Shown piece after piece: positions 7,919 to 18,829 of a stretch of DNA of 64,000 bases. The notes under the pieces were generated by a model, which searched no databases, was not told where the DNA came from, and worked only from the letters and a program-made list of their open reading frames with translations. This stretch comes from Firmicutes bacterium FC7 (GTDB lineage Bacteria > Bacillota > Clostridia > Tissierellales > Tissierellaceae): positions 1 to 64,000 of the forward strand of contig JAKELU010000011.1 in the NCBI GenBank assembly GCA_022760735.1, read 5' to 3'. Position 1 is the stretch's first letter. Every line of letters starts with the position of its first letter. A program made the position numbers and the translations under genes.

Positions 7919-8704
7919 CTATATAGTAAATTTTACAATCAAATCAGGGTTTAAAATCCTAAAGGTAAAGGATTCAGTAGCAAAGAATCTTATCTTTTCA
8001 GGATTACTTGACTGATAACCAATTGAGAAGTCCTGACCAATCGTTAACTCTAAATCATCATGATTATATGGTAATAAATATGCTCCATTTACTACATGAC
8101 TAAATACAATCTTTCCACCAATTAATTTTTCAATTCTTTCATCTAGTGGATATGCTGTTTCCTTTGACAATATTCTCTTATATGCTTCTTCATTAACAAC
8201 AAGTGTAAATGGGCCTGGCTCAAAGGATTTTCTAAGTTGAATTATACCCTTAGTTATTGCTTCCATTATTGATGTAGGATCATTACCAAATGGAATTGTC
8301 ACTTTTGCATGCTGATCTATACCCTTTATCATTGCCTTTTCCAAGCCATTATATATTGCTTTTTCTTCTAATAAGGCAATTTCCTTCATGGCAGTTTCTA
8401 ATGGTTCATAGTCTACATCCTTAGCGCCTCTAGCTATATTATCTAGTTCCCATCTATTCATTTCAAATTCTACCCTAGCTTCAGTCAATGGTTGTACTTG
8501 ATATGTCCCAAAGCAAAGGTTGTTTTCTAATTTATGAATATTTGTAAGTCTTCCTTCAGTTATTACGTTAAAATCTAGCCCCTTAGGTCCATTAACCTTT
8601 ACAACTTTTCTAGCTGACAGATATGACTTTAGAACCTCTGTAGCTCTTTTATCTATTTCATTCCAAGCTTCATTAGATATAGGTGCTAATTCTCTATATA
8701 ACAT
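7919..8704 (-). CDS. Family 1 encapsulin nanocompartment shell protein
   Basis: The protein self-assembles into an icosahedral HK97-fold shell that encloses a cargo enzyme. The 261 residues, the opening LYRELAPISNEAWNEID, the following ARKVVKVNGPKG and the C-terminal FRILNPDLIVKFTI are characteristic of the linocin M18/encapsulin family. GGAGGG sits 5 bases before the ATG. The cargo ferritin gene is immediately upstream (10-base gap), so the two form a classical cargo-shell operon. No second cargo gene is adjacent. Confidence 0.95.
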   Translation of the reverse strand: MLYRELAPISNEAWNEIDKRATEVLKSYLSARKVVKVNGPKGLDFNVITEGRLTNIHKLENNLCFGTYQVQPLTEARVEFEMNRWELDNIARGAKDVDYEPLETAMKEIALLEEKAIYNGLEKAMIKGIDQHAKVTIPFGNDPTSIMEAITKGIIQLRKSFEPGPFTLVVNEEAYKRILSKETAYPLDERIEKLIGGKIVFSHVVNGAYLLPYNHDDLELTIGQDFSIGYQSSNPEKIRFFATESFTFRILNPDLIVKFTI

Positions 8705-8714
8705 AAACTCCCTC

Positions 8715-9053
8715 CTATTTTAAATCTCCAATATTTAAGCTTGATTTAGGCTCATCTTCTCCACCGTGGTCATGTAATCCTGTAATTGGACCATCTGTAA
8801 AAAGGTAAGTTCTTAGTTCATGATCCCATCCGTCCATATTTCTTCTTAACCATTCAATTAACATTACAGCGTGCTCTATTTCTTCATCTCTGTTGTGGGC
8901 TAAAATAGCCTCCAGCTCTGGGTTCTTAGAAGCTACTACTCTTTGATTGTACCAATCAATGGCCTCTATTTCTTCCTTTAAACTGTTTAAAGCTCTTGAG
9001 ATATTAAAGGCTTCTTCGTTTAACTTTTCAGTAGGTTCATGATATTGTGACAT
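8715..9053 (-). CDS. Encapsulated ferritin-like cargo protein (EncFtn)
   Basis: This ferroxidase cargo stores iron inside the encapsulin shell. With the ATG at 9053 (8 bases after AGGAGGG) it has 112 residues. Glu27, Glu28, Glu30, Trp34, Glu57, Glu58 and His61 occupy the spacing of the EncFtn ferroxidase centre. The AHNRDEEIEHA and LRTYLFT segments are family hallmarks. The C-terminal SSLNIGDLK matches an encapsulin cargo-loading peptide, preceded by a flexible Gly/His/Asp/Glu linker. A TTG at 9059 would add two residues. Confidence 0.95.
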   Translation of the reverse strand: MSQYHEPTEKLNEEAFNISRALNSLKEEIEAIDWYNQRVVASKNPELEAILAHNRDEEIEHAVMLIEWLRRNMDGWDHELRTYLFTDGPITGLHDHGGEDEPKSSLNIGDLK

Positions 9054-9180
9054 TCCCAAATCCCTCCTATGTATTCTTTATGCATTAATTACCCTTAATA
9101 TGGGATAATTTAACAAATATGTTACACCTATATTATTATTCCCGAAATAATGTAAATAACACACAAATGCATTAATTAAA

Positions 9181-9879: not shown

Positions 9880-11238
9880 TTACATATCTAAGATTGGGTA
9901 ATATATTTCAAGCCACAGTTCATATCCATCTTCAAGTCGTTCATAATAGTGACTATTTATAGCCTCCATCATGGCTTCATAATACCACATTGTATTTAGA
10001 AGGTCAGGAAAATCTTTTGCTTCAGATAATATTTTCTCTTTATGAACTCTTCTTTCTAGCACATTGTTTACTAAAGTTACAAATTCAGCTCTTGTAATAT
10101 ATTGGTCTGGTTTAAAGGTACCATCTGGATAACCACTTACCCATCCCTTTAATGCAGCAGAGTTAATATATTTACTTGCCCAGTGTCCTTCTATGTCTGA
10201 GAACATATTTTCATCTGAAGGTGTTAATCTATCAAATTTTGAAGCTATAGTTGCTAATTCTGCCCTTGTAATAAAGTTACCAGGTCTAAAGCTTCCATCT
10301 GGATATCCGTTTATGATATTACCATTTGCAAGAGTTGCTATATGTTTTAATGACCATCTATTTGAGCTAACATCAGGGAAGTCCTCAACTTCTGTATATA
10401 TACTTGACCTATAAGCATTGTCTAAAAGTCTATAGAATACCGCTGCTACTTCCTCTCTTGTAATTAGACCCTCTGGTCTAACCGTATTGTCAGGATATCC
10501 TTGAATGTATTGTATATGGTCTTCTTTATTTAATATACCTAATGGAACTACTTCTTGGATTATTTCTTCTTCGTAGTCATCATCGTCACCTGGATCAACA
10601 GGATCATTATCTATATATCCCATAAGATTTATATATATTGGCATATTGGCTGTAACAGCCTCGAGTTCCTCAGTTGCTTCAGGTACCATATGGAGGGTGT
10701 ATTTTAGGTCTACACTACTATTCTTTGGAATTGTAAATTTATCTTTTTCAGCTAGAGTATATCCTCTATATTCATCATTGTCTTTTTCTAATAAAATATC
10801 TTTTAATGGAGTATAATCTACTAATATCTTATCAAATGTAAGCACTTTACCTTTTTCAATCTTTAAGTTAATGTCTTTTATAAATGAGTTAAATACAGTG
10901 TCTTTGTCATATCCATTATTTATATTCATTCCTGTTATTCCTATTGCAAGATTCTCAACCTTTATATTTTGGTAGTTGTTGCTAATCCTTATAACACCAC
11001 TAATTCCACCTATACCATTTTCAGCCTGCTCAACTGTTGCTGGATACAGTTGGCCATCAAAGAGATTGCCATTTTGTGAAATCTTTCCATCACTACCTAT
11101 AGTAACAATCACATTAGGACTTTTATTAATAGTGGTTGCAAAAGTAGATTGAATTAAATTAATAGTAAACACTCCGCCAATTAGTGTAAGGATTAAGACT
11201 TGCAATATCATTCTAAATATCTTATTCCGCCGCTTCAT
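9880..11238 (-). CDS. SLH-anchored surface protein with a TasA-like N-terminal domain
   Basis: A signal peptide (about residues 1-35) leads into a beta-rich domain of about 175 residues. Its GISGVIRISNNYQNIKVENLAI stretch, shown here only in outline, recalls the TasA/CalY pattern of a glycine turn followed by a strand with NNY/NNG. An acidic linker (about 211-228) follows. Three SLH repeats are marked by GYPDNTVRPE (247), GYPDGSFRPG (311) and GYPDGTFKPD (369), which bind pyruvylated wall polymers. It lacks the AAWT-type cleavage region of its neighbours. GAGGTG site before the ATG. A palindrome-containing promoter lies 112 bases upstream. It is probably the wall anchor of the locus (inference). 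Confidence 0.85.
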   Translation of the reverse strand: MKRRNKIFRMILQVLILTLIGGVFTINLIQSTFATTINKSPNVIVTIGSDGKISQNGNLFDGQLYPATVEQAENGIGGISGVIRISNNYQNIKVENLAIGITGMNINNGYDKDTVFNSFIKDINLKIEKGKVLTFDKILVDYTPLKDILLEKDNDEYRGYTLAEKDKFTIPKNSSVDLKYTLHMVPEATEELEAVTANMPIYINLMGYIDNDPVDPGDDDDYEEEIIQEVVPLGILNKEDHIQYIQGYPDNTVRPEGLITREEVAAVFYRLLDNAYRSSIYTEVEDFPDVSSNRWSLKHIATLANGNIINGYPDGSFRPGNFITRAELATIASKFDRLTPSDENMFSDIEGHWASKYINSAALKGWVSGYPDGTFKPDQYITRAEFVTLVNNVLERRVHKEKILSEAKDFPDLLNTMWYYEAMMEAINSHYYERLEDGYELWLEIYYPILDM

Positions 11239-11344
11239 ATGCTCACCTCATTATATTGGATATAAGTTTCCAATAATATTGTATCCATAAGGTAACCCAT
11301 ATACGCCATACATTGGGTTGATTTGAATTACTCTTTGGTTGTAA

Positions 11345-11372
11345 TTTATATACTACTATAGTAGTATTTAAT
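11345..11372 (-). promoter_or_regulatory. Candidate promoter with a palindromic operator in its spacer, upstream of the SLH gene
   Basis: Positions 11350-11367 are a perfect 18-bp palindrome, and TACTACTATAGTAGTA (11351-11366) fills the 16-bp spacer. Read on the minus strand, -10 TATAAA lies at 11345-11350 and a poor -35, ATTAAA, at 11367-11372. The same arrangement is present at 13495-13522. The weak -35 suggests dependence on an activator, but no transcription data support this. Confidence 0.55.
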
Positions 11373-11415
11373 AAAAATAAAAACCTCGCTAGACTTTGCT
11401 TCAAGTATAGCGAGG
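11371..11415 (-). terminator. Terminator of the DUF5305 gene
   Basis: On the minus strand the 8-bp stem CCTCGCTA/TAGCGAGG (arms 11408-11415 and 11384-11391) is followed by T-rich sequence at 11371-11383. Confidence 0.8.
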
Positions 11416-11440
11416 TACCTGCTTTTGCAATCAAACCATA

Positions 11441-12529
11441 TTAACTTTCATTACTAACTACTTCTACTTCTTCAACTGCTTTTTCTTCCTTAGGTAATGA
11501 ATCTTTTAAATTAAATGCATATGTTTCATCTCCATTAGTAACGTAGAATATATTTATTTCTTTATAATTATCGCTATATTTATATAAAATAGGCCTTTCA
11601 ACCTCATCTGCAAATCTTACTAAGTCATCAATAGTCCTTACATATTTAGCACCAGTTAAATCCATATCTGAATTTAGAGCAACTAACCTATCACCATGCT
11701 TCTTGAATATCTTGTTTCGTTCCTTTTCAAATTGATCTTTCTTAGGTGCAGATTTAGTAAAGAATATTAGGAATATAAGTCCTAGGCCACAGATTCCTAT
11801 GATTACACCATAGAAAATAACTTGTTTTTCGTCTACAGGTACTTGAACTTGGATAGTTTCCTCTATGGATCCAGACTTTTCAACGTTGTTAGTTGTTATT
11901 TCAAACATTGGCGTGTTTAATGGAATGACTATGTTTGGGGTTAAGTGTTCTTCAAAAGTTCCTTTGTCTGTTGTACCAGTTACATTGATGTCCATTAGTA
12001 AAGTTAGTTGTGTGTCGCAGTTTATTTTTGTGGATTCTAGTATTTCTTGTGCAAATGTGTTGTATTCGTTTATATTAAACTTAATATTCTCGCTGATTGA
12101 CACCTCCCCATTTATAGAGCTAAAATTTTTATGGTTTACTAAAGGAAAATCTCTTTCCCATACTGTTATTATTTCCTCACCTTTTCTGATGTATCCATGT
12201 AACCTTGCTTTTATAATATAAATACCTTTTATTGATGCTTCACTTTCACCATCTAAATTATAATTAAAGGTTGTACTTATATGATCGATTAAATTTGTTA
12301 TGTAAACTTGATTACTATCTAATGAATTTTTATTGTATAAATTATTGGGTTTAAGATATATTATGTAATCAACATTGCCGTTACTACTATATTTATAAAC
12401 TTGGTTAATTTCGTCTATAAAATTATATGAATTTACTACTTGATAAACTAAAAATATATTTAGCAATAATACGATTAAAAGTATAGGTATTACAGTTATT
12501 CTAATAACCTTATTAATTATTAACTTCAC
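11441..12529 (-). CDS. DUF5305-family membrane protein of the SipW/TasA-like locus
   Basis: The 362-residue protein has an N-terminal membrane segment (about 10-31), an extracellular beta-rich region of about 200 residues and a second membrane segment (about 243-262, FYGVIIGICGLGLIFLIFF). A cytoplasmic tail contains HGDRLVALNSD and a YRYS-like ILYKYSDNYK motif, which fits DUF5305. Genes of this family commonly neighbour SipW-type peptidases, but their role is unknown; export or assembly assistance is a guess. GGAGTGAAG lies before the ATG. A hairpin separates it from the camelysin-like gene upstream. Confidence 0.8.
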   Translation of the reverse strand: MKLIINKVIRITVIPILLIVLLLNIFLVYQVVNSYNFIDEINQVYKYSSNGNVDYIIYLKPNNLYNKNSLDSNQVYITNLIDHISTTFNYNLDGESEASIKGIYIIKARLHGYIRKGEEIITVWERDFPLVNHKNFSSINGEVSISENIKFNINEYNTFAQEILESTKINCDTQLTLLMDINVTGTTDKGTFEEHLTPNIVIPLNTPMFEITTNNVEKSGSIEETIQVQVPVDEKQVIFYGVIIGICGLGLIFLIFFTKSAPKKDQFEKERNKIFKKHGDRLVALNSDMDLTGAKYVRTIDDLVRFADEVERPILYKYSDNYKEINIFYVTNGDETYAFNLKDSLPKEEKAVEEVEVVSNES

Positions 12530-12623
12530 TCACTTCACTCCTTATATGGAAATTTTCACTTCTATTATATCGATGAAAGTATAAATAATTTGTTGATTTA
12601 TGTACTTATTCATCAATTTAATT

Positions 12624-12649
12624 AAGCCAGTAGATTAATCTACTGACTT
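12624..12649. terminator. Weak hairpin between the camelysin-like and DUF5305 genes
   Basis: A near-perfect palindrome centred on CAGTAGATTAATCTACTG forms an 8-10 bp stem downstream of the camelysin-like stop. There is no strong T-tract, so it may be a partial terminator or a 3'-end stabiliser rather than a full stop. Confidence 0.45.
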
Positions 12650-12675
12650 AGTTAATTTGTATCAAATTATTGATA

Positions 12676-13356
12676 TTAGTGAAGTTTTACCCTTCCCATG
12701 TATTGATTTGCCTGAACAAATCTAAATTTTAGATTTATTGCTAATTCATCATTTTCGCCTTGATCATCATATAAACTATTATGTGGTATTCTATATGTTA
12801 ATTGACAATAAAGTTCCTCATCTACACCTACATAATTACCTATCATTGGCGAATTTGTATCATTAAAAAATAATTCCTTCATTTCGTTTAATTTACAAGT
12901 ACCATCTTCTAGTGTAACTTCTGTATCATCGGCTTTTTTTGCTATCAATTTATAGTCTACTTCAATAGCATTATATAAGTCTCCATCTATATCACCTGTA
13001 ATATCTACAATAGCTTTTTCAATAAATCCCGCCATTGTTCCATTGTTTGCAATCTTAAAAGTTGTTGTTGCACTAGCTCCCGGATATAGATTATTAAATG
13101 AAAATTCTATTTGATCCTCCTCCACACTAACGTCAATCAAGTCTTTAAGTGTATTAATAGAACCTTTTCCAGCCACATTTCTTATACCCTTATCATAAGA
13201 AGCTTCTAATGCATCTTCAAGCAAAAATTCAATATTTAATTCACCTGTTCTAACTACACTATCTGTTTCGATAACTTCAGTCCAAGCTGCATATCCTGCT
13301 CCTGCTAACATTATTGCTACTACTAATGTCAAAGCTAACATTTTTGTCTTTTTCAT
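12676..13356 (-). CDS. TasA/camelysin (CalY)-like secreted protein
   Basis: This is a likely fibre- or matrix-forming exported protein. The signal region ends in GAGYAAWTE, the motif recognised in substrates of SipW-type signal peptidases. The mature part begins with a GELNIEF strand. It contains NLYPGASATTTFKIANNGTMAG, the family's hallmark loop and strand. Length is 226 residues. AAGGAGAGG precedes the ATG. It has its own promoter (13495-13522) and lies directly after the cognate peptidase gene. Fibre formation itself is inferred from the family, not seen. Confidence 0.88.
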   Translation of the reverse strand: MKKTKMLALTLVVAIMLAGAGYAAWTEVIETDSVVRTGELNIEFLLEDALEASYDKGIRNVAGKGSINTLKDLIDVSVEEDQIEFSFNNLYPGASATTTFKIANNGTMAGFIEKAIVDITGDIDGDLYNAIEVDYKLIAKKADDTEVTLEDGTCKLNEMKELFFNDTNSPMIGNYVGVDEELYCQLTYRIPHNSLYDDQGENDELAINLKFRFVQANQYMGRVKLH

Positions 13357-13494
13357 AATAACCTCTCCTTTTTTATATTTAATGTAATTGTTTAGCCTTG
13401 ATTATAATTATAGACTTGGAGAGTTTATAACACTCCCTTCTAAGGGATACTTTTCTATTATAATTAAGTATTATTTGATTAGTACAAAATGTCC

Positions 13495-13522
13495 ATTATA
13501 TACTACTTTAGTAGTATATCAA
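13495..13522 (-). promoter_or_regulatory. Promoter with a palindromic operator filling its spacer, upstream of the camelysin-like gene
   Basis: On the minus strand, -35 TTGATA (13517-13522) and -10 TATAAT (13495-13500) enclose a 16-bp spacer, TACTACTAAAGTAGTA (13501-13516). The wider inverted repeat spans 13498-13519 with 10-bp arms and a 2-base centre. The same palindrome in the same place lies before the SLH gene. The spacer position fits a regulator that binds between the two hexamers. The element overlaps the end of the signal peptidase gene. Confidence 0.7.
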
Positions 13523-14739
13523 AAAATTAGCTCTTCTAAATTAATATTCTGATTACTCTTAATAAAGAGGGTAAGCCATCCTATTTTAGGTATAGTATAT
13601 TCAACCTTACCTTTTATATCCTGAGGTCTTACTAAATTAGTGTCTACAGTAGAATTATTATCTCCCTTAGTCCTAAATTGTAACCCTTCTTTATCATTTT
13701 CTATTACATCTACAATTCTATGTGATATTAATATTTCACCTCGTTTAAACTGTATAACATCACCTTCCTTAAGAGCATTTATACCATCCATATTAACTAT
13801 CTTTTTAACCAATATTATATCTCCAGGGCTTATCATAGGTTCCATGCTACCAGTTGCAATAACAGATGGATAAATAGGAAATACCCCTACAGTAAACCAT
13901 ATAATTCCTATAGAAATCATACTTGTTATTATCCAACTTATAGGGCTTTCATCTTCCTGCTCCCTTAATTTAATCTTTTTAGTTGTACTTAAATATATAC
14001 CTTGAAATGTCATCAAGAAAAAAATAGGGCATAATACACCTATTAAAGCAGTGATAATCCATTTTAGGTTAGGTAGTATAGGTGATAACCAATGAAATCC
14101 TTTTATGATACCTAAATATATAATAGATGGGATTGGTCCTCCTAAGTAAATTAGATAAGATGTAAAGAGATTATTTGAAAACTCTGGAGCAAAATATTCT
14201 GCTAAAAATTGCACTAGAGTTTCTAAGTCTTTTAACTGAATATATCTATTTATATTAAAATTTATTATTGTCATAAGTAAAGATATTGATATAAACACTA
14301 TAAAGTTTTCCTTTTTGGTAACGCTATTTACTAAATAATTTCTAATAAACTCTTTTCCTACTAATGCTGTTCCAACATATATTATATTTATAAAAATTCC
14401 AATTATTGAGTGACTATAGGGACTTTTTCCTAAACCAAAAATAAAGCCAGCAAACATATTTATTGCAACAAACATCATCCCAAAGATAGTAGCCCATTCT
14501 ATAACTAACTTTCTGTGTTTTATTTTTGCCTTAGGTTTTATATGTGGTATATTGTAAATAAATATTGCTATGCATACCCATAGGAGAGGTTTAATGATAT
14601 ATGTAAAAGCAAAGTTGTCTATATAATTACTTATGATTTTAGAATTCCCAATTATATACATAAATAAAAGTAGTAAAATAACTATTATACTTCTACTACT
14701 TGTTTTTGTGGTAGGAATATATCTATTAGTAGTATCCAT
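13519..14739 (-). CDS. Long SipW/ER-type signal peptidase I with an N-terminal multi-spanning domain
   Basis: The peptidase presumably processes the AAWT-type preproteins of this locus. The catalytic part is C-terminal: TGSMEPMISPGD with nucleophile Ser298, then RGEILISHRIVDV with His340. The histidine in place of lysine defines the eukaryote/archaea-like S26B type, as in SipW. KGDNN (near 360) completes the conserved boxes. SipW proteins are usually about 190 residues. This one has an additional 270 or so residues with about six or seven membrane segments. ATG start after AAGGAGG. Confidence 0.9.
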   Translation of the reverse strand: MDTTNRYIPTTKTSSRSIIVILLLLFMYIIGNSKIISNYIDNFAFTYIIKPLLWVCIAIFIYNIPHIKPKAKIKHRKLVIEWATIFGMMFVAINMFAGFIFGLGKSPYSHSIIGIFINIIYVGTALVGKEFIRNYLVNSVTKKENFIVFISISLLMTIINFNINRYIQLKDLETLVQFLAEYFAPEFSNNLFTSYLIYLGGPIPSIIYLGIIKGFHWLSPILPNLKWIITALIGVLCPIFFLMTFQGIYLSTTKKIKLREQEDESPISWIITSMISIGIIWFTVGVFPIYPSVIATGSMEPMISPGDIILVKKIVNMDGINALKEGDVIQFKRGEILISHRIVDVIENDKEGLQFRTKGDNNSTVDTNLVRPQDIKGKVEYTIPKIGWLTLFIKSNQNINLEELIF

Positions 14740-14926: not shown

Positions 14927-15721
14927 CTATTCTTCTGTAGACTCTTCAGTTTCAACATATGCTTCCTCGTTTTTATTTTGAACTTGATTGCTTTCGTCTT
15001 CTATTACCTTCTCTTTATAAACTTTCTCATTATCTTCTTCTACCTCTAGTTCAACATCGGCCTCTTCCTGATTAACTTCTTCTTTTTTATCATATTTAAT
15101 TTCATCTAGCTCTATTGCTTCTTCTACATCTTCCAATATTTCTTCTTTTGCTTCTTCATTCTCCTCATTTACTAAATTTTCTTCTTCAATCTGTTTTACA
15201 TCATGAATATACTCTTCGCCCTCTTGTTCTCTATTTTGTTCTTCAGTCAACTCTTCTATATTTTCTTCAACTTTTTTTCCTTCTTCTTGACTTTGTCCAC
15301 TTTGATCATTATTAATTAAAGAAACATCAGGTTCAGGTGTTTCAATTGTATCTTCACCAATAGAATATACTGGTTCAATATCTATTTCTTGAACTGGATC
15401 TTGCTGTTCTAACAGATTTTGTTCTTCTAGTAACATCTGCTCTTCCAATAGTCTTTCAGCTTCTAACAATGCAAGCTGCTCTGCAAGTAATCTTTCTGCT
15501 TCAAGCCTTTTAGCTTCCAGTCTTTGCTGTTCAAGTTTGTATTCTAATTCCTCTTCTAATTTACTTATATCAGACACCATTGCGATAACTACATTATGAT
15601 CTGGTACTACTGTTATATCACCTGTAACTGAAATCTCCTCAGACCATCCACCATAGCCACCTTGCATACAAGCAAAAGCTGATAAAATACTCAATAAAAT
15701 TACAATATACTTTTTTCCCAT
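14927..15721 (-). CDS. Secreted Glu-rich coiled-coil protein with a SipW-type signal peptide
   Basis: The N-terminus is a hydrophobic signal ending in GGYGGWSEEISVTGDI, a variant of the AAWT motif of TasA-like proteins. After about 25 residues of this domain the protein turns into heptad-like repeats of LEAERLL type (about 50-115). A strongly acidic, Glu-rich tail extends to residue 264. No enzyme domain is recognisable. It could be a spacer or matrix component exported by the neighbouring peptidase. The tail looks truncated (see 14800-14926). GGAGG ribosome site. Confidence 0.7.
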   Translation of the reverse strand: MGKKYIVILLSILSAFACMQGGYGGWSEEISVTGDITVVPDHNVVIAMVSDISKLEEELEYKLEQQRLEAKRLEAERLLAEQLALLEAERLLEEQMLLEEQNLLEQQDPVQEIDIEPVYSIGEDTIETPEPDVSLINNDQSGQSQEEGKKVEENIEELTEEQNREQEGEEYIHDVKQIEEENLVNEENEEAKEEILEDVEEAIELDEIKYDKKEEVNQEEADVELEVEEDNEKVYKEKVIEDESNQVQNKNEEAYVETEESTEE

Positions 15722-15760: not shown

Positions 15761-16369
15761 CTACAACCCCTGCTCGAATAATATCTTGTAATCAAATATG
15801 AACCTTTCATGAATACTCATATATTCGTTAAGTTTATCTTCTAGTCTATTGATCTTATTACTTAGTCCTTCGATTTCTCCTTCTAAATCATCAGGACTTT
15901 TATCAATAAAACTATTATCATAGTCCCCTGAATCACTAATTTCTGGATTTATACTTATACAAAATGATTCAAGTAAATCATCTCTCTCTGAACTTGTAGT
16001 TTTGACTATTTTTACAACTTCTTTATCATCACTTATAGGTTTTATGTCATTTAGTACCGAAGGAATACTTCCCTTATCATATATCTCCATTTCTAGACTG
16101 TGGCTAAAGCCCGGGTATACTTTCCCAACTATTTCCAAAGTCTTGCTATTAGTATTTATATTAAATTCCTCATAATTTTTAATTTGTGTTAAACCATCAG
16201 TTATTTTACTCTCTATATCTAAATGACCAGTAGTTATATTCATACCTATTTTTAACCCTTCACCCCATGCTGCATATCCAACTCCCATAGCCCCCAAAGA
16301 AACAATAATACTTATATATATTACAGACATTTTCCCACCATATTTTCTACGTCGCTTTTTATTACGCAT
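15761..16369 (-). CDS. TasA/camelysin-like exported protein
   Basis: Using the ATG at 16369 (after GGGAG), the product has 202 residues. It has a very basic start (RNKKRRRK), a hydrophobic stretch ending in GVGYAAWGEG, a strand GHLDIESK and VGKVYPGFSHSLEMEI, which matches the TasA-family loop. The remainder ends in a predicted coiled coil (LEGEIEGLSNKINRLEDKLNEY). It begins 2 bases after the response regulator gene, so it is the first structural gene of the riboswitch-led operon. An extension to 16405 would overlap the regulator without a ribosome site. Confidence 0.8.
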   Translation of the reverse strand: MRNKKRRRKYGGKMSVIYISIIVSLGAMGVGYAAWGEGLKIGMNITTGHLDIESKITDGLTQIKNYEEFNINTNSKTLEIVGKVYPGFSHSLEMEIYDKGSIPSVLNDIKPISDDKEVVKIVKTTSSERDDLLESFCISINPEISDSGDYDNSFIDKSPDDLEGEIEGLSNKINRLEDKLNEYMSIHERFIFDYKILFEQGL

Positions 16370-16370
16370 C

Positions 16371-17003
16371 TTAGACACACTCCCTATATAGATTTGAAAC
16401 CTCATTAACCAATAAAGCTGCCTGAGTTCTATGGCTAAGCTCTAGCTTAGATAGAATATTGCTTATATGTTTCTTTACAGTGTGCTCTGATATAAATAAT
16501 TCATCTGCTATTTCTTGATTGCTCAATCCTTTACCTAGTGCTACTAATACTTCATTTTCTCTTGGTGTCAACTCTGATAATATATTATTCTTTTGATTAT
16601 AGGTCGACTGATACTTTAATATTTCAGGGTCTATAAACTTCTTACCTCTAAGTACTACATGGACTGCATACAATATATCCTCTGCAAATGCCTCTTTTAA
16701 TATATAACCATTTACTCCTATCTCTTCCGATCTAATATAATCATCTCTTTTTACTGAGGACGTAAGAACCAAAAACTTTGTATTCATTCCTTTATTTTTA
16801 GCTCTCCTAACAATTTCTAAACCATCTTCTTTACCTAAATTTAGATCTACAATAGCTAAATCAGGTTTCTCTAGCTTTAATATCCCCATTGTTTCTTCAA
16901 CATTAGAAGCTTCCAATATCTTTTCAATATCTCCTTCAAAGGACAGTGCTAATGATATGCCTTTTCTAACACAAGGATGATCATCAACTATTAGTATTTT
17001 CAT
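16371..17003 (-). CDS. NarL/LuxR-family response regulator
   Basis: The receiver domain carries the phosphoacceptor Asp53 (AIVDLNLG), DD at 7-8 and Lys near 104. A LuxR-type helix-turn-helix follows (about 145-205: ELTPRENEVL, NQEIADELFISEHTVKKHISNILSKL). It is the cognate partner of the sensor kinase, with which it overlaps by 4 bases (ATGA). Its size and pairing resemble LiaR/VraR/DegU. The target is unknown; the ACTACT/AGTAGT palindromes nearby are a reasonable candidate (inference). Confidence 0.92.
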   Translation of the reverse strand: MKILIVDDHPCVRKGISLALSFEGDIEKILEASNVEETMGILKLEKPDLAIVDLNLGKEDGLEIVRRAKNKGMNTKFLVLTSSVKRDDYIRSEEIGVNGYILKEAFAEDILYAVHVVLRGKKFIDPEILKYQSTYNQKNNILSELTPRENEVLVALGKGLSNQEIADELFISEHTVKKHISNILSKLELSHRTQAALLVNEVSNLYRECV

Positions 17004-18676
17004 ATTGCTACCGCTCCTTTCAACACTTCTAAGTTATTAGGTAACGTAATATTGATTGTTGTACCTACACTTAACTCACTTACTATCTCAATTTCTCCAT
17101 TTAAGCTTTCAGTTAGTTGGTGTAAGTTCTCTAAACCTAACCCCTTAGATTCACTTGACATTACATCTTCTATTTCGAACCCTATACCATCATCTATTAT
17201 GCTAAGTCTAGTGGTTTCACCGTCCACATTTAACGTTATGTCTACATTTTTAGCTTTTCCATGCCTTACTGCATTGCTTAAACCTTCACAGATCATTCTA
17301 TATAGTGCCTTTTTCTGATTTGTTGTAAGTATTTCCACATTTCCTAATATACTAAATGGAATATTTACATTGTTTAATCTAATAATTTCATCAATAAAGT
17401 TTCTAATGTCTACAGTAAAGCTATTTGTACCTGATTTCTTCCAACTAAGTCCATAAATTTTTTCTCTTAATTCCTTCATAACTGAATCAGTGGTGTTTCT
17501 GATTAAATTAAGTTCTTCTTCTATTTCCTGTTTTGAATATGAATTTAATCTTTTTATTGTTGCAAATATACTACATGACATACTAAATAGTTTTTGTAGC
17601 ACAGTATCATGTATTTCATTTGCTATTCTATTTTGCTCCTCTGAAATTAAAAGTCTTTCGTTTACTCCTTCTAAGGATAACCTTTCAAAAGATAATGATA
17701 GAAGCTCTGATATAAACTGTAATTGGTAGACATTATTCTTATAAATTATGCTATTATTACCATCCGTACATTCTAAACCTAATAGTCCGTATGCTTTGTA
17801 ATTTGATGTAACTTTAGTTATTATATATCTATTATTATGTATATGAAGCTCGTCTATTGTTTTATCTCCAAAAATTTCTTCAAAATTTTCTCGGATATAA
17901 CCTTCTACATGATCTATGCATTTTGTATCTCCATAGGAATACATTTTGTTTTCATTTTCACTTATATCGTAATAAAAGGCTGTATTACTTTTAGTAATTT
18001 GCTTTATATGTTCAAAGGATATCTTAATAATCCCTTCCTTATTTCTCTGGTTTCCTAATATACCAACCGATTGATAAAGTGCTTTAATATGCTCAATAGA
18101 TTCTAAGGTTTGCTTATTAGCTTGCTCTAATTCTAAATTAGTTTCTTCTAATTTTTTACTTTTGTCATTAGCCTTATTTATATATATTCCTAGTAAATTT
18201 ACTGCTGCAATGATCATTAAAAAGCTTAACAAAAGATTTGATTGCTCTCTTATTGCTTCGATGTCACTTATTTCCAAATTGATTCCATATTTTAGTATTG
18301 TCATATAGCCCAAAATGTATGCAAGAAAGTTGAGCCAACAATAGTATTTTCCAAAATAAATTGAACTTATCAATATTGTATTTAGGGTATACCAGATAAA
18401 GGGACTATCAATCCCTCCAGATGGTATTAACAATAGTAAATTACCTATTGTCTCCATGATTAATAGAAGTAATATATTCTTTTTTGAGTTTTCAAATACA
18501 GGATAAAGATATGATAAGATTATTGCTGAAATGCTTATGCATCCAATTATAAATAGCTTTCTTAAAAGTGTATGTTCTGGGATATTAAATAAGTAGAATA
18601 TAGATGTAAGCATCAATGAAAGATATCTATAAATGAAAAGAATTTTTGATTCAGCCATTCTGTTTTTTAAAAACAT
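17000..18676 (-). CDS. Membrane sensor histidine kinase (HisKA_3 type) under a c-di-GMP riboswitch
   Basis: About six membrane segments fill residues 12-167, followed by a coiled coil (170-200) and a GAF-like region (about 200-335). The HisKA_3 dimerisation box has its phospho-accepting histidine at residue 356 (EEQNRIANEIHDTVLQ). The ATPase domain has EGLSNAVRHGKA and DDGIGFE. The ATG at 18676 lies 6 bases after GAGGTG; a GTG at 18685 would fall in this site. The ligand is not predictable. It is the first gene after the riboswitch and terminator. Confidence 0.9.
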   Translation of the reverse strand: MFLKNRMAESKILFIYRYLSLMLTSIFYLFNIPEHTLLRKLFIIGCISISAIILSYLYPVFENSKKNILLLLIMETIGNLLLLIPSGGIDSPFIWYTLNTILISSIYFGKYYCWLNFLAYILGYMTILKYGINLEISDIEAIREQSNLLLSFLMIIAAVNLLGIYINKANDKSKKLEETNLELEQANKQTLESIEHIKALYQSVGILGNQRNKEGIIKISFEHIKQITKSNTAFYYDISENENKMYSYGDTKCIDHVEGYIRENFEEIFGDKTIDELHIHNNRYIITKVTSNYKAYGLLGLECTDGNNSIIYKNNVYQLQFISELLSLSFERLSLEGVNERLLISEEQNRIANEIHDTVLQKLFSMSCSIFATIKRLNSYSKQEIEEELNLIRNTTDSVMKELREKIYGLSWKKSGTNSFTVDIRNFIDEIIRLNNVNIPFSILGNVEILTTNQKKALYRMICEGLSNAVRHGKAKNVDITLNVDGETTRLSIIDDGIGFEIEDVMSSESKGLGLENLHQLTESLNGEIEIVSELSVGTTINITLPNNLEVLKGAVAI

Positions 18677-18710
18677 TATCAGCACCTCATCTAATAGTTT
18701 TAGAGAAAAA

Positions 18711-18747
18711 TAAAACCCAATATATAAGCTTAACTTATATATTGGGT
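18711..18747 (-). terminator. Riboswitch-associated intrinsic terminator
   Basis: On the minus strand a perfect 14-bp stem (arms 18734-18747 and 18715-18728, loop 5) is followed by TTTTATTTTT. It stands between the aptamer and the kinase start codon. The first four bases of its 5' arm are the last bases of the aptamer, so folding of one can affect the other. Confidence 0.85.
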
Positions 18748-18816
18748 CGGTTGCGCCATTGACTCCTCATGTGCCAGGCGCCCAAACTTAGCAACATGAA
18801 TCATAATCTCCCGCAT
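18744..18816 (-). ncRNA. Class II cyclic-di-GMP riboswitch aptamer
   Basis: The minus-strand order matches the class II consensus as I recall it: GCGGGAGA, then TATGAT, then AGTTTGGGC, a hairpin, then GCGCAACCGACC. The stem GCGCC/GGCGC replaces the GCACU/AGUGC of the Clostridium acetobutylicum aptamer by compensating changes, while the loop residues are conserved. A promoter-like TATAAT lies 14 bases upstream and an intrinsic terminator follows. The controlled genes are the sensor kinase, the regulator and probably the TasA-like genes. Confidence 0.88.
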
Positions 18817-18829
18817 TTTATTTACATTT

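Follow-up and report, generated by a model that had tools for sequence, protein, structure and literature searches.

Two copies of a short palindrome in a surface-protein locus appear to be operators of the response regulator encoded beside them. In the reading proposed here, which as a whole we regard as quite probable, the palindromes would be bound by this neighbouring regulator and would activate transcription from upstream, and the regulator would come from a kinase-regulator operon gated by a riboswitch. The locus lies on the minus strand of the window, the whole 64-kb stretch of DNA that was analysed. In the direction of transcription it comprises a c-di-GMP-II riboswitch, the kinase, the regulator, two small secreted proteins, a SipW-like protein, a camelysin/TasA-like protein, a DUF5305 protein and an SLH protein. 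The genes and the elements between them were as follows.

17000 to 18685, minus strand: sensor histidine kinase, in the same operon as the regulator (HisKA_3 and HATPase_c)
16371 to 17003, minus strand: response regulator of the NarL/LuxR type, the proposed binder of the palindromes (Pfam Response_reg and GerE)
15761 to 16405 and 14927 to 15721, minus strand: two small secreted proteins with signal ends of the GYAAW- and GGYGGW-type
13519 to 14739, minus strand: SipW-like signal peptidase (PF10502), encoded immediately upstream of the camelysin gene
13501 to 13516, minus strand: palindrome TACTACTAAAGTAGTA 5' of the camelysin/TasA-like gene, a 7-2-7 inverted repeat (TACTACT-AA-AGTAGTA) at an orthologous position kept in relatives
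12676 to 13356, minus strand: camelysin/TasA-like secreted fibre protein, the first putative target (PF12389)
11441 to 12529, minus strand: DUF5305 protein
11384 to 11416, minus strand: GC-rich stem with a T-run immediately ahead of the SLH promoter region, which to judge from the sequence probably ends transcription of the DUF5305 gene
11351 to 11366, minus strand: palindrome TACTACTATAGTAGTA 5' of the SLH-domain gene (TACTACT-AT-AGTAGTA), with counterparts in relatives G001, G003 and G011
11328 to 11343, minus strand: putative degenerate second operator, matching by sequence comparison the place of the second palindrome of G001, 23 bp downstream of the first
9880 to 11238, minus strand: SLH-anchored surface protein, the second putative target (three PF00395 domains)

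The closest solved structures to the regulator were VraR (E 1e-38) and NarL (2e-31). Among the scanned products of the conserved locus no other recognisable DNA-binding protein was found beside it. A hairpin scan near 11384 to 11416 scored a nearby stem, on the plus strand only. Downstream of the SLH gene, at 7919 to 9059 of the window (minus strand), lie an encapsulin shell gene and an EncFtn-like cargo gene, and this pair adjoins the surface locus in G001 as well.

The palindromes were present at both places at which the sequence-only reading had reported them, the intervals 11345 to 11372 and 13495 to 13522 being the palindromes plus their flanking hexamers. At each place two 7-bp inverted half-sites are separated by a gap of 2 bp (TACTACT-NN-AGTAGTA). 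The whole 2.5-Mb genome contained two exact copies of TACTACTNNAGTAGTA, both at the surface locus, while the reversed control gave none; the many copies across coding DNA that the same reading had named as evidence against itself were thus not found. Copies with one mismatch were not enriched genome-wide (12 versus 19 for the control), and in the genome-wide scan 9 of 10 near-matches lay inside long open frames. For these two reasons the regulon in this genome looks, from the distribution of the motif, as if it were limited to the camelysin and SLH promoters. Exact palindromes beyond the locus occurred in the relatives G041, G037, G035, G053, G006 and others, and several of them resemble coding sequence.

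With the signal peptidase as the search sequence, loci of the same gene order were found in 20 of 249 genomes of the order and in 18 of 391 genomes of a class sample; the motif was already settled when the class sample was examined. The named relatives are all metagenome assemblies of Tissierellia. With a threshold of at most 3 mismatches in 14 positions, the motif was present in the gap before the camelysin gene at 27 of 37 sipW/camelysin loci, compared with 1.29 expected from dinucleotide shuffles. Exact copies stood at the expected place in G537 and G366 of the class sample, which belong to families far from that of the window, and a divergent group (G203, G204, G213 and the second locus of G206) carried the related sequence TACYACYNNRGTGGTA. 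Before the SLH gene of the sister species G001, two tandem palindromes 23 bp apart occupy the same place as the window copy, and G003 and G011 have degenerate copies there. Degenerate sites in other genomes were weak, and in several relatives the SLH-type gene had no good operator or no separate promoter. In G002 (L068, about 1415 to 1450) the palindrome lies within a longer, GC-richer inverted repeat, CCCACTTAACTACTACTAAAGGAGTAGGTAAGTGGG. From this pattern it is very likely that operator function has been conserved by selection.

The presence of the motif followed that of the regulator. Where the regulator was visible beside the locus, 24 of 28 loci had the motif, and at three further motif-bearing loci the contig ends before the regulator gene. 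No match with at most 3 mismatches was found in four regulator-bearing loci (G553, G355, G614 and G547). The motif was present in none of the six loci in which the regulator was absent from the neighbourhood (G201, G408, G386, G534 and G468) or cut short (G056); absence in G408, G386, G534 and G468 was judged within about 5 kb either side of the locus. A whole-genome search for the regulator in G201 and G056 gave as best full-length matches paralogues of only 36 to 39% identity. The Fisher probability of the association was near 2e-4 by hand count, a loose figure because the genomes are related and the loci are not independent. The response regulator gene of G056 (L104, 7914 to 8363) stops with TAG after the receiver domain, the adjoining kinase is missing and the palindrome is gone. 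A second, orphan response regulator of the NarL type is encoded directly downstream of the surface locus in G023 (L061, 3392 to 4006, minus strand). The proposal of the sequence-only reading that one regulator controls the camelysin-like and SLH genes, with the kinase-paired LuxR/NarL-type protein as the leading candidate, gained from the conservation of the motif at orthologous positions, from its loss without an intact regulator and from the likeness of the sites to those of NarL, LiaR, VraR and CesR. The product of 16371 to 17003 is likely, judging from these comparisons, to be the binder of the palindromes.

Alignment of 15 camelysin gaps gave a constant order of elements: the palindrome, diverged sequence, a AAGTATACYTTTNNRTGGCGTAA box, TATAAT and the ribosome-binding site. 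TATAAT was invariant in all 15. The promoter elements of the window were assigned as follows.

13428 to 13453, minus strand: -35-region box of the camelysin promoter, AAAGTATCCCTTAGAAGGGAGTGTT (consensus AAGTATACYTTTNNRTGGCGTAA), from the alignment
13407 to 13412, minus strand: predicted -10, CTATAAT, in the conserved promoter before the camelysin gene, which would set the start at about 13400 and the palindrome centre at -108.5
11300 to 11323, minus strand: box AATCAACCCAATGTATGGCGTATA in the -35 region of the SLH promoter, conserved in the sequences of relatives
11278 to 11283, minus strand: predicted -10, TACAAT, before the SLH gene, which would set the start at about 11271 and the palindrome centre at -87.5

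At both promoters the -35 region coincides in part with an element resembling AAGTATACYTTTNNRTGGCGTAA, and the divergent group has a recognisable version of it; this conserved box could belong to a second activator. The leader of the SLH gene contains a possible short ORF (ATGTATGGCGTATATGGG...), which was rejected because its start falls on the -35-region box and the reading frame is not preserved in G001.

The position of each palindrome centre was counted from the transcription start to be expected from the invariant TATAAT. Before the camelysin gene, ten genomes (including G052 with its aligned TATAAT) had the centre at -108.5 to -110.5, three at -87.5 to -88.5 and one each at -99.5 and -132.5; at the SLH promoter the values were -87.5/-88.5 and -65.5. 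The steps between these positions, with centres near -65.5, -87.5, -109.5 and -132.5, are thus of about 11 or 22 bp, and in the window genome the camelysin (-108.5) and SLH (-87.5) palindromes share the same phase. In distant relatives the -10 was in some cases chosen by eye. A fixed rule for the choice, which departs from it for G203 and G213, led to equal phasing (20 unambiguous gaps, R(11 bp)=0.83). Simulation on the five distinct spacing classes gave a P of about 0.002, which is a post hoc value. Because the relatives keep the palindromes at fixed helical steps upstream of the promoter, these look like on-switches and not like blockers inside a promoter. The spacing, in a promoter whose -10 is good and whose -35 is poor, is likely to reflect an upstream activator bound on one face of the helix and not a spacer operator, and activation by the palindromes, as opposed to repression, is likewise the likely outcome.

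The sequence-only reading had put the palindromes into the spacer of functional promoters. Its description of the hexamers was accurate: a good pair, TTGATA-16-TATAAT, with 11 of 12 consensus matches, stands at 13495 to 13522 before the camelysin-like gene, and ATTAAA-16-TATAAA, with a very poor -35, at 11345 to 11372 before the SLH gene. It is nevertheless improbable that the operator works inside the -35/-10 spacer, where the bound regulator would block the promoter or realign it in a MerR-like manner. Such an arrangement would give this species a second, upstream camelysin promoter that is shut when the regulator binds. The near-consensus pair flanks the camelysin palindrome exactly, and repression by NarL is known as well, at frdA from a site close to the start (PMC4549865); both would suit this explanation. 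However, relatives that retain the palindrome conserve neither of the flanking hexamers, the region contained no more promoter-like hexamer pairs than shuffled sequence (14 versus 16.7), and the SLH copy has no usable -35. As the flanking hexamers are specific to this genome, the notion of a palindrome filling a functional spacer fails. The MerR-like or promoter-occluding placement was given up as well, the species-conserved promoter with its invariant TATAAT lying about 70 to 90 bp downstream of the palindrome, in register with it and in near-constant helical phase. MerR-type spacer operators occupy an over-long spacer of 19 to 20 bp between conserved -35 and -10 hexamers; the spacer here is 16 bp and its hexamers are not kept in relatives, and an operator of this type was rejected. 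The TTGATA-16-TATAAT pair around the camelysin palindrome could still be a real, additional promoter of this species.

Control of the same genes by a different protein that binds the palindromes, either a NarL-type paralogue or a member of another family, is unlikely. The genome encodes further NarL-type regulators, the best being 41% identical to the locus regulator, and genomic association is no proof of binding; but every locus without an intact neighbouring regulator lacks the motif as well, and the conserved locus offers no second DNA-binding protein among its scanned products. Operators of BlaI and MecI (TAC...GTA) look similar to the palindromes, but the family PF03965 had no match in the genome and this type was ruled out. 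The possibility that the palindromes are RNA hairpins or terminators is very slight. They are perfect inverted repeats, and the longer, GC-richer repeat of G002 would fit a hairpin; however, they are AT-rich and have no T-run, and their 11/22-bp register to the -10 suits a protein bound to DNA. They also lie upstream of the predicted start and would therefore not be transcribed from that promoter. Just as slight is the chance of a fortuitous occurrence or of shared ancestry without function: AT-rich intergenic DNA and related genomes would favour it, but shuffling accounts for about 1.3 of the 27 motif-bearing gaps, and motif and -10 were kept while the gap around them diverged strongly.

The type of operator was assessed from a profile of 68 half-sites of 34 collected sites. 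T at position 1 was found in 68 of 68, C at position 6 in 67, T at position 7 in 53 and A at position 5 in 63. Only 3 of the 68 half-sites fitted the strict E. coli NarL heptamer TACYYMT (PMC4886647), while 40 fitted the looser TACYNMT. When compared with the CesR repeat TCAGHCTnnAGDCTGA (PMC4447274), the sites showed the frame of LiaR, VraR and CesR operators, 16 bp in length with T at the ends and CT-nn-AG in the centre. By its base preferences the palindrome is likely to be a NarL-family operator of the LiaR/VraR sort and not a strict NarL site.

Two overlapping RNA elements were assigned to the leader upstream of the kinase gene.

18736 to 18820, minus strand: c-di-GMP-II riboswitch aptamer (RF01786, 59.1 bits, E 3.7e-11)
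18713 to 18748, minus strand: predicted intrinsic terminator that, by its fold and the aptamer alignment, extends into the 3' strand of stem P1

A c-di-GMP-II aptamer was also found upstream of the kinase in ten relatives (G001, G003, G011, G034, G202, G206, G232, G048, G052 and G234). The terminator stem that follows has 16 bp, and the 3' strand of the stem that closes the aptamer is part of both structures; ligand binding is therefore predicted to prevent termination, and the riboswitch is probably an ON switch. In G201, which has neither the kinase-regulator pair nor the palindrome, a c-di-GMP-I riboswitch precedes the first surface gene by about 60 bp (L096, 12097 to 12184, minus strand).

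In the mechanism that we propose, one regulator dimer would bind each 16-bp 7-2-7 repeat. One or more operators would stand about 65, 88, 110 or 132 bp upstream of the start, in a register of about 22 bp (two helical turns), so that RNA polymerase would meet the bound dimers on one side; they would activate a promoter in which the -10 is good but the -35 poor. Kinase and regulator would themselves be transcribed only when the c-di-GMP-II riboswitch in their leader allows, and a high level of c-di-GMP together with the signal of the kinase would turn on the surface-fibre genes. ON control by c-di-GMP is plausible in view of the predicted fold, and the circuit would run from c-di-GMP through kinase and regulator to the palindromes and the surface fibre. 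For the more specific picture of a two-layer c-di-GMP circuit, in which a riboswitch-gated NarL-type pair tiles operators in a 22-bp register at both promoters and at least one relative has swapped to direct control by a c-di-GMP-I riboswitch, we see about an even chance. The reading supplies a testable operator, regulator, promoter and input signal for the control of matrix fibres in Tissierellia-like anaerobes, and across a bacterial class the circuit may be recognised by its palindrome. What looks in G201 like a swap of the two-component system for a direct riboswitch with the same second messenger would be a regulatory rewiring in which input and output are kept.

Among known systems, the operators of LiaR, VraR and CesR are likewise 16-bp inverted repeats with two central bases, T at each end and CT...AG around the centre, and in sequence the locus regulator comes nearest to VraR. 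S. mutans LiaR needs a stretch of adenines adjoining the repeat. The outer half-site, however, is TACTA here and TCAGH in their operators, and the targets are surface-fibre genes and not envelope-stress genes. The pneumococcal VraR site is TMMRYCTRARGWYKGA (PMC11034029); VraR motifs were reported 31 to 34 bp from the start, whereas the palindromes described here centre at -65 to -132. E. coli NarL sites share the 7-2-7 inverted heptamers starting with TAC, as in the engineered site TACCCCTAAAGGGGTA (PMC4549865), and the multiple upstream positions, from which NarL activates ogt (-44.5 and -77.5; PMC7419079). The palindromes described here differ from them in the A that prevails at position 5, and no sign of nitrate control was seen.

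The CmrRST system of C. difficile, in which a class II c-di-GMP riboswitch positively controls kinase and regulator genes (PMC8844915), resembles the locus in having this riboswitch before such genes, as identified here with RF01786, and in its effect on the cell surface. CmrR and CmrT belong to the OmpR family, in contrast to the NarL/LuxR-type regulator with its Response_reg and GerE domains, and the target here is the TasA/SLH locus. In the sipW-bsaABCRSD locus of C. perfringens a kinase and a response regulator are likewise encoded together with sipW and a TasA-like fibre gene (PMC7395162). One promoter was mapped there upstream of sipW, whereas the operators described here follow sipW and precede the fibre and SLH genes. 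The main text of that study describes no operator motif, and BsaR is likened to the locus regulator by gene context. BsaS/BsaR is required for expression of sipW-bsaA, and BsaR binds that promoter (PMC7395162); by analogy this pair is the functional precedent for a kinase and regulator acting at a fibre locus.
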